DNA from: Acidilobaceae archaeon
GTDB taxonomy: Archaea > Thermoproteota > Thermoprotei_A > Sulfolobales > Acidilobaceae
Length of the DNA stretch: 35,578 nucleotides
Reading direction: 5' to 3'
Assembly (NCBI GenBank): GCA_027014125.1
Contig: JALWEI010000021.1
Coordinates: forward strand, 1-35,578
Shown: positions 11,110-23,046 of the stretch, piece by piece
Layout: each line of letters opens with the position of its first letter
Position numbering within the stretch: position 1 is the stretch's first letter
Translations under genes and position numbers: made by a program
The notes under the pieces: generated by a model
Database searches by the model: none
Told to the model about the DNA's origin: nothing
Seen by the model: the letters and a program-made list of their open reading frames with translations, nothing else

Positions 11110-11226
11110 CGCCACGGTCCCCCTGCTGGGCTAGTATGTGCAAGCGCCTGTGGGATACTGGTCTTGTCTATGTAGATGCTTATAGGTAGTGGACTCTACT
11201 ATTGTATACTAAGCGGGTGGGTTGCA

Positions 11227-11643
11227 ATGCTGAGGGGTTGTTGCGATGTAACGGTTGAGGCGGCTATGAAGCAGGTGTACCCAACGGCAAGGCCTGGGGA
11301 GAGGTTGGGGGACGCCCTGTGCAGGATGGATGAGGACGGGATCCTTATTGTAGTAGATGAGGCCGGAAGGCTACTTGGGGTCGTGGGCCAGGACGTCGCC
11401 GCCAGGGCCCTGTGCAAGGGGCTAGGCGATGCTAAGGTAGAGGACGTTATGAATAAGAACCCACTGGTGCTGAGGCCGGGCATGAGGCTCGACAAAGCGC
11501 TACCGCTAATGCTGTTAGCAGGAGCCAAGGCAGCCCCTGTGGTAGACCAGGATGGAGTGGTTATAGGCCTAGTCACGCTGCCCCTGATAGCAAGGGCGCT
11601 CCACGAGGAGGTCGATGTAGAGGAGCTCCCCTCCGCCGGCTGA
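11227..11643 (+). CDS. Two-CBS-domain (Bateman) protein
   Basis: The protein consists of one Bateman module: a first CBS motif (TARPGERLGDALCRMDEDGILIVV and the GRLLGVVG turn) and a second (NPLVLRPGMRLDKALPLM with GVVIGLVTLP). Such pairs bind adenosine nucleotides or related ligands and act as energy or metabolite sensors. No catalytic or DNA-binding domain is attached, so it probably regulates a partner in trans. The frame is open from ATG 11176; ATG 11227 is preferred because the extra residues look unlike the family and a TATA-like TGTATACT lies about 21 bases upstream. It stands alone between ndk and the ligase gene. Confidence 0.8.
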   Translation: MLRGCCDVTVEAAMKQVYPTARPGERLGDALCRMDEDGILIVVDEAGRLLGVVGQDVAARALCKGLGDAKVEDVMNKNPLVLRPGMRLDKALPLMLLAGAKAAPVVDQDGVVIGLVTLPLIARALHEEVDVEELPSAG

Positions 11644-17960: not shown

Positions 17961-18029
17961 CCCAGGCCAGGGGCCCGAGAGGGCGCAGAGGCTCCCCCCG
18001 GCCGAGTCTAGTGGTTGAGGTGCATAGCG

Positions 18030-18716
18030 ATGGCGAGGTTCGACGTGGCCCTCATGAACATCCACGGCAACTCCAACGTGGGCGTGTATCTACACGCGAC
18101 CGACTCATACGTACTAGCATCACCCGACATAACAGAGGAGGAGGCCAGGAGGATAGAGGAGGTCACAAGGGTCCGGGTAGTCAAGACCCCAGTCTCGGGC
18201 ACTAGGCTGGTAGGGGTCATGGCCACGGGCAACAGCAACGCAGTCCTCCTACCAAAGACCAGCGACGCGGAGGAGGTCAGGAGGATAAAGGAGGCGCTGG
18301 GGGACGTCAACGTCGTCGTTGTGGAGACCAGGAACAATGCGCTGGGCAACCTAGTGGCGGCCAACGACAGGGCAGCAGTAGTCTACCCCCAGCTAGAGGA
18401 CGAGACCGTGAAGGCCATACAGGACGCGCTAGGCGTGGAGGTGGTGAAGATGAGCATAGCAGGGGTACTCACAGTGGGCTCTATACTAGTGGTGACAAAC
18501 CGGGGGGGCCTAGTCCACCCCGACGCCAGCGAGGATGAGGTGAAGGAGCTCTCCAACCTGTTCAAGGTGCCCATACTAACCGGAACGGTTAATTTCGGGG
18601 TATCCTTCGTTAGAACCGGGCTAGTAGCAAACAGCTGGGGGGCCGTGGTGGGCGAGGACACCCGCGGCCCCGAGCTGGCTAGGATACAGATGGCCCTAGG
18701 AGGTGGCGTGGAGTGA
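18030..18716 (+). CDS. eif6: Translation initiation factor aIF6
   Basis: aIF6 binds the large subunit and prevents premature joining with the small subunit. The sequence shows the five repeated alpha/beta segments of the pentein fold (for example [86 protein letters not shown]). ATG 18030 is chosen because GAGGTG lies eight bases before it and the family starts close to MxRxDV; the frame is open to a TTG at 18015. At 228 residues it is of normal size. Its end overlaps the LX start by four bases. Confidence 0.95.
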
Positions 18717-19424: not shown

Positions 19425-20354
19425 GTGGTCTTCAACAGGCTCAAGGCGGCGATAACCAGCGCCGCCTCCGCCCTAAAGACCGGGATAGGGGAGAAGGTAG
19501 CCTACAAGACAATAAGCGAATCCGACATAGAGGAGGCCCTAGAGGAGTTCCTCATAAACCTGGTCGAGGCCGACGTGGCCTACGAGGTTGCAGAGGAGAT
19601 AGTGGAAGAGGTCAAGAAGAGCCTAGTAGGCTCCAAGGTCAGGAGGGGCGAGGACATAGAGAAGATCGTAGTGGAGGCCGTGAGGAGGAAGATCCTAGAG
19701 AAGCTAGGAAAACCAGGCCCAGACATAGTAGAGCTCGCCAGGGAGAAGTGCAAAACCGGGGCACCACTAGTAATCGTATTCCTCGGAGTAAACGGGGTCG
19801 GAAAGACGACAACAATAGCAAAGATAGCGGCCATGCTCAAGGAGGCAGGCATGACCCCGGTACTAGCGGCGGCAGACACCTTCAGGGCAGGAGCCCAGGA
19901 GCAGCTGGAGACCCACGCCAAGAGGCTCGGCGTGCCGATAATAAGGGGAGAATACGGCAGGGACCCTGCTAGTGTCGCGGTTGACGCCATAAACCACGCC
20001 AAGGCCCGCGGCTACTGCGTGGTCCTCGTAGACACCGCTGGGAGGATGCACGTAGACTACGACCTAATGGGGGAGCTAAGGAAGATCGTGAGGGTAGCCA
20101 AGCCGGATCTGAAGGTCCTAGTAGTGGATAGCCTAACCGGGAACGACGCCGTCGAGCAGGCAAGGAGGTTCAACGAGGAGGTGGGAATAGACGGGGTCAT
20201 ACTAACAAAGCTGGATGCAGACGTGAAGGGAGGCACAGCGATATCGGTGGCAGCCGCCACGGGGAGGCCCATACTATACGTGGGGGTGGGCCAGGGCTAC
20301 CGGGACCTTGAGAGGTTCGACCCCGAGAGGTTCGCATCCGCGATACTAGGCTAG
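19425..20354 (+). CDS. ftsY: Signal recognition particle receptor FtsY
   Basis: FtsY is the membrane-associated SRP receptor GTPase that delivers ribosomes to the translocon. The N-terminal four-helix part (about residues 1-95) precedes the NG GTPase domain, with GVNGVGKTTT (P loop, about 120-129), AADTFRAGAQEQL (insertion box), DTAGR, TKLDAD and a GVGQGYRDLERFD C-terminal segment. The length of 309 residues and the short N terminus are normal for archaea. The start is GTG, eleven bases after pfdA. It ends the long plus-strand operon, and its TAG overlaps the stop codon of the convergent CBS gene in the palindrome CTAG. Confidence 0.96.
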   Translation: MVFNRLKAAITSAASALKTGIGEKVAYKTISESDIEEALEEFLINLVEADVAYEVAEEIVEEVKKSLVGSKVRRGEDIEKIVVEAVRRKILEKLGKPGPDIVELAREKCKTGAPLVIVFLGVNGVGKTTTIAKIAAMLKEAGMTPVLAAADTFRAGAQEQLETHAKRLGVPIIRGEYGRDPASVAVDAINHAKARGYCVVLVDTAGRMHVDYDLMGELRKIVRVAKPDLKVLVVDSLTGNDAVEQARRFNEEVGIDGVILTKLDADVKGGTAISVAAATGRPILYVGVGQGYRDLERFDPERFASAILG

Positions 20355-21214
20355 GCCCTGTAAGCGAAGGCGGTGAGCACCTCTATCTTACTGAACACCC
20401 CAAGCATGGACCCGTCATCATCCACAACAGGGAGGACACCGATACCCTCCCTAACCATGAGCCCGGCCGCAGTCGCCGCGTCATCACTTGGCCTCGCAAC
20501 TATAGGGTCAGGCGTCATTATATCCTCGGCTATCGGAGTTATGTAGACCCTGGCCGACACCATCCTATCAGCATACCTCCTAGTAGTCTTCACCTTCACA
20601 TACCTATCCTTCCCCCTGCTAGATGCCAGGGCAGCATCAATCCTGGTGAAGACAAGGTCCCTCTTCGCTATCACACCTATAGGCTTACCCGACTCGTTCA
20701 CGACTATAACCTTCCCAGCGGGGTCCGACTGGATCAGCCTGGATATGTAGTAGAGGCTGTGCCCCCTCTCCGCCCTGGCATAGGTCCTGCGCATAAGCTC
20801 CCCTACAGTGAACTTGCCCCGGTACTTGTCCGCGAAGGCCCTCACTACGTCGCTCCTCGTCACTATACCCAGAAGGCTCCCCCCGGAGTCTACAACGGGC
20901 AAGCCGCCTATCCTCCTCTTCACCATTATCTGAGCCGCCGTCTTGGTGCTCCTAGTGGCCTCGATCGTTATCGGATCCCTAGTCATAACCTCCTCCACCA
21001 GTATAGTGTCGATAGTCCTGGTGGGGAACCTAGACACGAGGGCCTCGGTTATGTCACTCAGCGTTATTATCCCAACCAACCTCTCATCGGAGTCCACAAC
21101 GACGAGCCTGCCAACATCCCTCTTCAGCATCAGGTTCCTAGCATACGCCAGCGTGTCGGTAGGCCTAACAGCGAGCACAGGGCTACTCATGTATGACGAG
21201 ATCCTGGGAGCCAC
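20351..21214 (-). CDS. Four-CBS-domain protein, third gene of the CBS operon
   Basis: The 287 residues hold four CBS motifs, meaning two Bateman modules, and nothing else. The motifs begin near residues 7 (MSSPVLAVRP), 75 (MTRDPITIEA), 139 (a shorter, more divergent unit ending GKPIGVIAKRDL) and 228 (MTPDPIVARP), most with a following LGIVT/VGIIT turn. Such proteins usually sense adenine nucleotides or other small ligands. GTG 21214 is six bases after the stop of the preceding gene, so it is co-transcribed with the two upstream four-CBS genes. The partner it controls is unknown. Confidence 0.88.
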   Translation of the reverse strand: MAPRISSYMSSPVLAVRPTDTLAYARNLMLKRDVGRLVVVDSDERLVGIITLSDITEALVSRFPTRTIDTILVEEVMTRDPITIEATRSTKTAAQIMVKRRIGGLPVVDSGGSLLGIVTRSDVVRAFADKYRGKFTVGELMRRTYARAERGHSLYYISRLIQSDPAGKVIVVNESGKPIGVIAKRDLVFTRIDAALASSRGKDRYVKVKTTRRYADRMVSARVYITPIAEDIMTPDPIVARPSDDAATAAGLMVREGIGVLPVVDDDGSMLGVFSKIEVLTAFAYRA

Positions 21215-21220
21215 ACGGGG

Positions 21221-22225
21221 TCACCCCACAACTAGGGAGACGAGCACGTCCCTCTCCGTTATAATCCCTATTATGCTATCCTCCTCGGTGACCAGCAGGC
21301 TGCTAACGCCGTACTCGATCATGGCCGAGGCGGCCTCCCCAACATCGGCCCCGGCATCTATAGTATACACGCCGGGCTGCATCACCTCGTAGACAGGGGT
21401 CTCCAGGACCTCCTCTATGTTCCCGGTGGTGGCCCGAGAGAGGGCCTCGTGGCTCCCGAAGAACACTACTATATCCTTAGCCGTCACCATCCCCTTGACG
21501 CTCGAGTCACCGCCGGAGACGACGGGTAGCCTCCTAAAGCCGTACTTAACCATCTGCCTCGCGGCACTCCTGATAGTGGACTCGGCGTCTATCGTCACCA
21601 CCGGCGTGGTCATGTAGTCCCTGACCTTCCTGCCCACGCTCCTCCTGGCCAGGTACTTCACAAGGTCGTGCTCGGTGAGCACTCCATACACTGAGCCATC
21701 GTCATAGACCACGGGGATGAGGCCAACCCCCTCCCCAATCATGGCGTGGAGCACGTCCTCCAGGCTCTGATCTGTGTAGACGTAGACGGGTGAGGGGTTG
21801 TATATAGACTGAACGAGCTCGTTCCTAAGCGCCTTGAATATATTCCTATTATGCCTGGCGATCACGATGTTATAATACTCGCCCCCACCCAGGTAGTTCA
21901 CCATGTCAGTCGTCAACAGTATACCCTTGAGGGACTCCCTAGAGTCAACGACTACCAGGCCCCTGACCCGGTGCTCTGCTATAGCCTCAGCAGCCTCCAG
22001 TATAGTAGAGCTGTAGACAATCGAGCGCGGGGGCCTCGAGGCAAGGAGCCTAGCCTCGCCCGGCTTCTCATATATCCTCTGGCTCCAGTTAGGCGTCCCA
22101 TCGGCACGGAGCCACCTAATACCCTCCGGCCTAGACCTTGGGACAACCCTAGAGACTGGGCCCGGGCTCCTCACCCGGGCGCTCTGAACCCTCCTCACAG
22201 GAGGTCTACGGGCCACAGCTACCAC
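21221..22225 (-). CDS. Four-CBS-domain protein with basic N-terminal extension, second gene
   Basis: The first 60 or so residues are Arg, Pro and Ser rich and strongly basic, probably disordered and possibly nucleic-acid or ribosome binding. Four CBS motifs follow, starting near residues 67 (RSIVYSSTILEAAEAI), 143 (NPSPVYVYTDQSLEDV), 206 (MTTPVVTIDAESTIRS) and 286 (MQPGVYTIDAGADVGE), each ending in a GIIT or GVLT-type turn. GTG 22225 overlaps the stop of the upstream gene by seven bases. The basic extension separates it from the other two CBS proteins and may direct them to a target. Confidence 0.88.
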   Translation of the reverse strand: MVAVARRPPVRRVQSARVRSPGPVSRVVPRSRPEGIRWLRADGTPNWSQRIYEKPGEARLLASRPPRSIVYSSTILEAAEAIAEHRVRGLVVVDSRESLKGILLTTDMVNYLGGGEYYNIVIARHNRNIFKALRNELVQSIYNPSPVYVYTDQSLEDVLHAMIGEGVGLIPVVYDDGSVYGVLTEHDLVKYLARRSVGRKVRDYMTTPVVTIDAESTIRSAARQMVKYGFRRLPVVSGGDSSVKGMVTAKDIVVFFGSHEALSRATTGNIEEVLETPVYEVMQPGVYTIDAGADVGEAASAMIEYGVSSLLVTEEDSIIGIITERDVLVSLVVG

Positions 22226-23022
22226 CCCATCACGGCCCTAACTATGTCCTCCCTATCCACGATCCCCACGAGCCTGCGGGAGGACTCGTCCTCCACAATC
22301 GGGATCCTCCCGTAACCCTTCTCGGCAACAAGCCTAGCCGCCTCCTCCAGGCTACTCCACGGGTATAGGTAGTGCACGGTGTAGGTCATGGCCTCCCTGA
22401 CCCTAGGCCCCCTATGCTGGCCAGCCTCGCTCGTCAACTCAACCCTAGCATAGCCCTTCCTGAGCAGGTCGTACTGGGTTATGATCCCCACTAGCCTACC
22501 CTTCTCATCGACCACCGGCAGGCCTGCGTACTTCCTCTCCACCATTATCCTCCATATACTGGCTATGAAGTCGTCGGGCCCCACAGTTAATGGGTCCCTG
22601 CTCATAACCTCGTCAACCCTTATCCCGGCCAGGTGGCCGGGGTTTAGGCGTAGGTGCTCCGCTATAACGTGCTCCAGGCCCAGCAGGCCTGCTAGAACGC
22701 CCCCATCAACCACGGGGGCATACCACTCGTCGACCCTGAGCATAGACTCCAGGGCCGAGGCCACGGTCTCGCCGGGAGATAGAACTACCGGGGGCTCCTC
22801 CATGATGTCCCTAGCGGTGGCGGTCGTCTTCCTAGTGGTAACAAGGAGTGCGAGCCTCCTGGGGACCCAGCCTAGTAGCCTCGCCTCGTGGGTGACTAGT
22901 ATAACCCTGGCTCCGGTCTCCCTCATGATCTTCCTAACGGTAGCCGCCGAGCTTGTTGGGGGCACGCTGAGGGGCCTAGGGTCCATAAGCTTCGAGACCT
23001 GGACTTGGCTGAGGGAGGACAA
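22219..23022 (-). CDS. Four-CBS-domain protein, first gene of the CBS operon
   Basis: From the chosen start the protein has 267 residues with four CBS motifs (MDPRPLSVPPTSSAATV, then EPPVVLSPGETVASALES, then VMSRDPLTVGPDDFIASI, and last AMTYTVHYLYPWSSLEEA), each with its closing turn. The third unit (GLPVVDEKGRLVGIITQYDL) is the most canonical. The frame stays open far upstream to 23277, but that part is antisense to the NfeD-like gene. TTG 23022 is placed 29 bases from a TATA-like ACTATATAT; TTG 23046, 27 bases from CTTAAAAG, is the alternative. It leads a three-gene operon. Confidence 0.85.
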   Translation of the reverse strand: MSSLSQVQVSKLMDPRPLSVPPTSSAATVRKIMRETGARVILVTHEARLLGWVPRRLALLVTTRKTTATARDIMEEPPVVLSPGETVASALESMLRVDEWYAPVVDGGVLAGLLGLEHVIAEHLRLNPGHLAGIRVDEVMSRDPLTVGPDDFIASIWRIMVERKYAGLPVVDEKGRLVGIITQYDLLRKGYARVELTSEAGQHRGPRVREAMTYTVHYLYPWSSLEEAARLVAEKGYGRIPIVEDESSRRLVGIVDREDIVRAVMGW

Positions 23023-23046
23023 CGCTGGCAGGCGGCACCACCACAA

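Follow-up and report, generated by a model that had tools for sequence, protein, structure and literature searches.

What do three consecutive proteins built from CBS domains alone act upon? The question arises from a 35,578-nucleotide stretch of DNA from an Acidilobaceae archaeon (contig JALWEI010000021.1 of assembly GCA_027014125.1; hereafter the window), in which a first-pass annotation had noted three tandem four-CBS genes and had proposed that their products form a nucleotide sensor acting in trans on a membrane- or translation-related target. We name the genes C, B, and A in their order of transcription. In our assessment it is highly likely that C-B-A is a ribosome-hibernation operon of the sriABC type (CM-5/4/1): judged from its relatives, its target is almost certainly the ribosome, and it very probably parks ribosomes during stress. 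An operon of this kind is already known from deposited structures of Sri proteins and from published CM clusters; what is possibly new here is the presence of the trio and Dri in one genome, the nearly constant company of B in genomes with Dri, and a conserved motif in the tail of B. The genes and their CBS domains, the latter located by a six-frame Pfam search, are as follows.

22219..23046, minus strand: gene C, four-CBS, first in the operon, assigned to the SriA / CM-5 type, homologue of the N-terminal half of Dri; 275 amino acids (aa) from the TTG at 23046, start codon uncertain
22228-22401, 22459-22617, 22660-22815, 22855-22998, minus strand: CBS domains of C
21221..22225, minus strand: gene B, four-CBS with a basic N-terminal tail, assigned to the SriB / CM-4 type, MJ1225-like; 334 aa
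21236-21394, 21464-21625, 21647-21814, 21887-22042, minus strand: CBS domains of B
20351..21214, minus strand: gene A, four-CBS, last in the operon, assigned to the SriC / CM-1 type, homologue of the C-terminal half of Dri; 287 aa
20363-20530, 20651-20806, 20831-20998, 21035-21202, minus strand: CBS domains of A

C and B overlap by 7 nt, B and A are separated by 6 nt, and A overlaps the end of the convergent ftsY gene by 4 nt. The Pfam search, which covered the whole genome, found 12 CBS domains (PF00571; E 7e-18 to 1.7e-4) in the trio, four in each open reading frame, where they make up two Bateman pairs; 11 of them exceed the family cut-off, and the third CBS of A lies just under it (23.2 versus 24 bits). 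The whole-protein E-values are 8e-53, 5e-49, and 1e-46, and no Pfam domain other than CBS exceeded its cut-off in any of the three proteins. The first-pass coordinates, the tandem arrangement, and the count of twelve CBS motifs without an effector domain were thus borne out.

Relationship of C, B, and A to ribosome-bound CBS proteins

The best sequence matches in the PDB are chain 4 of 9znf for C (3e-30), chain 5 of 9znf for B (6e-43), and chain 6 of 9zni for A (7.5e-29), and chain 6 of 9zni is also the best fold match of the predicted A model. The entries (released 2026-01-28) are titled as Methanosarcina acetivorans 70S ribosomes with SriA and SriB (9ZNF), with SriD (9ZNG), and with SriC and SriD (9ZNI), so that by the titles of 9ZNF and 9ZNI two different Sri proteins sit on one ribosome; in all three, eL31 and uS7 have the same sequences as in 9O17, a published ribosome of M. 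acetivorans. We read chains 4, 5, 6, and 7 as SriA, SriB, SriC, and SriD, as matched from the entry titles. Our literature search found no paper naming SriA-D, and the details of the Sri proteins given here rest on PDB entry titles and sequences.

A tree of 87 modules (LG+C20, with eukaryotic AMPK gamma subunits left out) placed C with Methanosarcina chain 4 and the N-terminal half of Dri (100/99), B with chain 5 and MJ1225 (97/92), and D, the counterpart of SriD, with chain 7 (98/91). A grouped with chain 6 and the C-terminal half of Dri (93/88), which is the weakest of the three trio groupings and includes one long-branch A sequence. All 11 groups of the tree jointly require the minimum number of changes. 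The two halves of Dri (proteins of ~620–650 residues) were also found separately by profiles in many genomes, with A matching the C-terminal half and C the N-terminal half. By these matches and groupings, C, B, and A are one-to-one orthologues of SriA, SriB, and SriC. Recent tandem duplication is excluded by the tree, in which the three are ancient paralogues: they form deep, separately conserved lineages, not the recent duplicates without conserved differences that the first-pass annotation had considered.

In Methanosarcina genomes, the genes for chains 4-5-6-7 are consecutive on one strand behind a two-CBS gene, an order that matches C-B-A-D. Six families of stand-alone CBS modules have been described, with a CM-5/4/1/2 cluster in methanogens and with Dri as a fusion of CM-5 and CM-1 (PMC13324472). 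From gene order and the grouping with Dri, not from those authors' models, C would be CM-5, B CM-4, A CM-1, and D CM-2. The remark in the first-pass annotation that no complex of this form is described does not hold, as the Sri proteins on the M. acetivorans 70S ribosome, Dri, and the CM-5/4/1/2 cluster (PMC13324472) are described relatives; its suggestion of a translation-related target, probably acted on in trans, is supported.

The operon resembles the genes for SriA-D (9ZNF, 9ZNG, 9ZNI) in gene order, in encoding proteins with four CBS domains only, in the N-terminal extension of B, and in the loop of A. It differs in lacking a fourth gene and the upstream two-CBS zinc-finger gene, and in that its genome also encodes Dri; in addition, Thermoproteia conserve the tail motif of B well, and Methanosarcina matches it only in part. 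Likewise, the published order of the CM-5/4/1/2 clusters (PMC13324472) matches C-B-A-D, but the form found here has three genes, with CM-2 elsewhere in the genome. That two archaeal phyla share this gene order suggests that the cluster either is very old or was passed on as a block.

Conservation and neighborhood of the operon

We surveyed 126 genomes of the class, each at least 90% complete, and counted as orthologues of B those proteins with a profile E below 1e-70. B was found in 76 genomes, A in 50, C in 51, and all three in 46. C-B-A is contiguous on one strand in 41 of these 46; among the five exceptions, the genes are split between contigs in two, C lies 55 kb off in one, and A is inverted beside C in two (family f5). 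The neighborhoods of 40 relatives show the same three types, mostly as C-B-A on one strand, and in families f8, f4, and others a fuller order was found (two-CBS, C, B, A, D). The trio is thus a conserved unit, and the scattering in relatives that the first-pass annotation had allowed for did not occur. The third gene of the cluster in genus g4 (L072:9972-10832, L073:7499-8359) has diverged to 23–25% identity and is hardly recognizable as A.

In the window the trio is flanked by genes for FtsY (TIGR00064, above its cut-off) and for an NfeD-like protein.

19425..20354, plus strand: ftsY, convergent neighbor and last of a run of translation genes (context only)
18015-18716: eIF-6 gene of the run on the ftsY side

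In the family of the window's genome (f1), the trio faces the ftsY gene that closes an eL31-eIF6-LX-prefoldin-ftsY run, and this adjacency was seen in that family only. In several genomes of families f2, f4, f8, and f10, a gene for NFACT (NEMF/Rqc2/RqcH) lies upstream on the same strand as the CBS cluster. The NFACT genes, all on that strand, are the following.

L075:2738-4726
L076:982-2985
L077:5833-7734
L064:5748-7997
L066:11125-13035
L067:5247-7193

NFACT is a ribosome quality control protein, which links the cluster to that process, and the translation-gene and NFACT contexts both favor a ribosomal target. The same neighborhoods bear on the idea that the trio is a sensor linked to the membrane, to the signal recognition particle, or to NfeD. 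The trio adjoins ftsY and nfeD in the window, and ftsY also in other members of f1, but NfeD was recognized as a neighbor in f1 only, the FtsY/NfeD neighborhood was not found in other families, in which NFACT or unrelated genes adjoin the cluster, and the ftsY run is itself a translation cluster. We consider this explanation highly improbable and the least likely of all, and the membrane-related target of the first-pass annotation is not supported. A role in defense was also considered and rejected; a PADLOC search gave no match for A, B, C, D, or Dri.

Association with Dri and mutual exclusion with HibA

The genome that carries the trio (1.82 Mb, 99.8% complete) also encodes an intact Dri orthologue of 622 aa with eight CBS domains on contig C28 (L079:2308-4176; G000:C28:67307-69172) and a SriD (CM-2) orthologue, away from the operon, on contig C18 (L080:2345-3172; G000:C18:22344-23168). 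In f1 the SriD gene is preceded by a two-CBS gene, whereas in other families D directly follows A. Two further four-CBS proteins of this genome (L081:1814-2620 and L082:1068-1886; 268 and 272 aa) form a deep long-branch pair that belongs to none of the groups of A, B, C, D, or Dri.

Compared with Dri of Pyrobaculum calidifontis (9E6Q, 9E7F; Nissley et al., 2025, as cited in PMC13324472), the trio has the same fold and loop position, with C similar to the N-terminal half and A to the C-terminal half. Dri, however, is one chain of eight CBS domains, whereas the trio consists of separate four-CBS genes with B between the other two. Dri was found in 34 of the 126 genomes, and B is present in 33 of these. 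B occurs without A or C in 24 genomes (an example from f9 is L071:9092-10042), 10 of which have Dri (9 of the 23 in f9, and G051 of f7); the rest have B alone. The pattern would fit a substitution in which Dri stands in for separate C and A while B stays. As one cell can hold separate modules beside the fused form, the reason for the fusion can be tested.

Domains of the HibA type (HPF) were found in 39 of the 126 genomes; none of these has B, and 11 genomes have neither. Eight HibA genomes gave weak matches to the B profile (1e-46 to 1e-50), which we attributed to other CBS proteins and left out of the count; seven of the eight matches cover only positions ~114–320. Such an exclusion has already been reported (PMC13324472) and is reproduced here within one class. 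HibA resembles the trio in its four-CBS module, which blocks ribosomes as the trio is predicted to do, and differs in its HPF/RaiA domain (PMC13324472). A search for this domain (PF02482) found none in the trio proteins and none in their genome, which belongs to an order that also has families with HibA.

Several points weigh against assigning the trio to ribosome hibernation. Ribosome binding, the site of each protein, and the role in hibernation are inferred from solved relatives. Identity to the Methanosarcina proteins is ~25–35%, and the exact binding sites may differ. CBS discs are versatile: HhpR, a relative of type CM-3, acts as a transcription factor (PMC13324472). With Dri encoded in the same genome, the trio might be partly redundant or might have drifted. 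For the exclusion between B and HibA, the Fisher p is 7e-23, a value that takes no account of the shared ancestry of the genomes; a split within f5, where one genus has B and another has HibA, is more telling. Finally, chain 5 of 9znf, the best sequence match of B, does not appear in the top 50 fold matches for the predicted structure of B; an incomplete model of SriB in 9znf, perhaps of the tail only, would account for this.

Conserved tail, loops, and ligand sites

Outside the CBS domains proper, three elements stand out.

22058..22225, minus strand: basic N-terminal tail of B, predicted disordered, residues 1-56; low predicted local distance difference test (pLDDT) score; 10 R/K versus 1 D/E before the motif core
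22085..22126, minus strand: conserved tail motif of B, EGIRWLRADGTPNW, residues 34-47, candidate ribosome-inserting element
20540..20647, minus strand: basic loop (residues 190-225) that joins CBS3 to CBS4 in A; the C-terminal module of Dri has its loop at the same position

The basic, disordered N terminus that the first-pass annotation described in the second gene is real: the AlphaFold2 pLDDT of residues 1–50 of B is mostly ~50–60 (one ten-residue block reaches 76), compared with >90 in much of the CBS body. Around EGIRWLRADGTPNW, all 41 B orthologues from the order follow a pattern of the form R-x-x-R-[ASV]-D-[GAS]-x-P-[N]-[WF]. In a 19-row alignment P45 is invariant and R37, R40, and D42 are each conserved in at least 90%; the tail outside the motif varies among orthologues. 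Conservation of a motif within a disordered basic tail suggests that the tail binds something fixed, such as ribosomal RNA, and makes it a concrete prediction of a ribosome-inserting element.

The loop of A is conserved as RGKDRYxKxK...RxYxxPxAEDIM and is predicted to form a hairpin at pLDDT ~60; at the equivalent place C has a conserved Q-x-D-L...K-G...L-E-S-E-S stretch. Loops that match the A loop in position are also present in Dri and HibA (PMC13324472). The trio might instead regulate transcription, as does HhpR, a stand-alone CBS module whose CBS3-CBS4 loop is functional, and the basic loop of A does occupy the same place as in HhpR and Dri. The HhpR model (NF053603), however, scores only 73, 48.3, and 39.4 bits against a cut-off of 520, and direct orthology to SriA, SriB, and SriC was found; we consider regulation of transcription highly improbable.

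The canonical G-x-x-[ST]-x-x-[DN] signature is kept among orthologues in A1, A2, B2, B4, C3, and mostly B3, and is absent, degenerate, or variable elsewhere. Binding of adenylates at some CBS sites of the trio is plausible from these signatures. The nucleotide sensor proposed in the first-pass annotation is upheld only in part: about half of the 12 domains keep the ribose-binding signature. The HibA module bound adenosine monophosphate (AMP) best, yet its ribosome binding showed no clear response to AMP (PMC13324472).

The signatures retained in B (CBS2, CBS4, and mostly CBS3) would also suit an adenylate sensor complex of the AMPK-gamma kind, with an enzyme or kinase off the ribosome as its target. 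The closest fold to the predicted B model is MJ1225 of Methanocaldococcus jannaschii (3kh5, 3lfz), called a gamma-AMPK homologue by its authors; it is also the next sequence match of B in the PDB (3kh5, 2e-39). Yet MJ1225 falls within the clade that joins B to ribosome-bound SriB, the AMPK-gamma-like family is a separate one (CM-6; PMC13324472), and the exclusion between B and HibA fits a role on the ribosome. Fold similarity to AMPK-gamma is general for four-CBS discs. The disc of MJ1225 resembles that of B, but its alignment spans residues 11–280 of a 280-residue chain, so that an N-terminal tail as long as that of B would not fit. A sensor complex of the AMPK type is very unlikely, if somewhat less so than a set of transcription regulators.

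We return to ribosome hibernation, for which the solved relatives suggest the following scheme. Under stress, the three four-CBS discs would be produced together and would settle in functional sites that stand empty on idle 70S ribosomes. For C (SriA/CM-5, similar to the N-terminal half of Dri), the predicted place is over the peptidyl-transferase side of the large subunit; A (SriC/CM-1, similar to the C-terminal half) would use its basic CBS3-CBS4 loop to obstruct the mRNA channel of the small subunit. B (SriB/CM-4) would join C on one ribosome and insert its conserved basic N-terminal tail there, and its placement is the least secure of the three. Adenylate levels may tune binding through the CBS sites with a kept ligand signature; nucleotide control and induction by stress are both speculative. 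A more elaborate version, which we regard as possible but rather doubtful, would make B the core of a modular system in which the EGIRWLRADGTPNW tail plugs the ribosome and B works either with separate C and A or with fused Dri, as two interchangeable complexes chosen by adenylate state. Under the simpler scheme, an operon of orphan "CBS domain proteins" in heat-loving Thermoproteia becomes a testable ribosome-hibernation operon.

A separate two-CBS gene lies at 11176-11643 of the window, beside a DNA ligase gene. It was considered as a displaced two-CBS gene of the cluster and rejected, as the best match of the cluster's two-CBS genes lies elsewhere.

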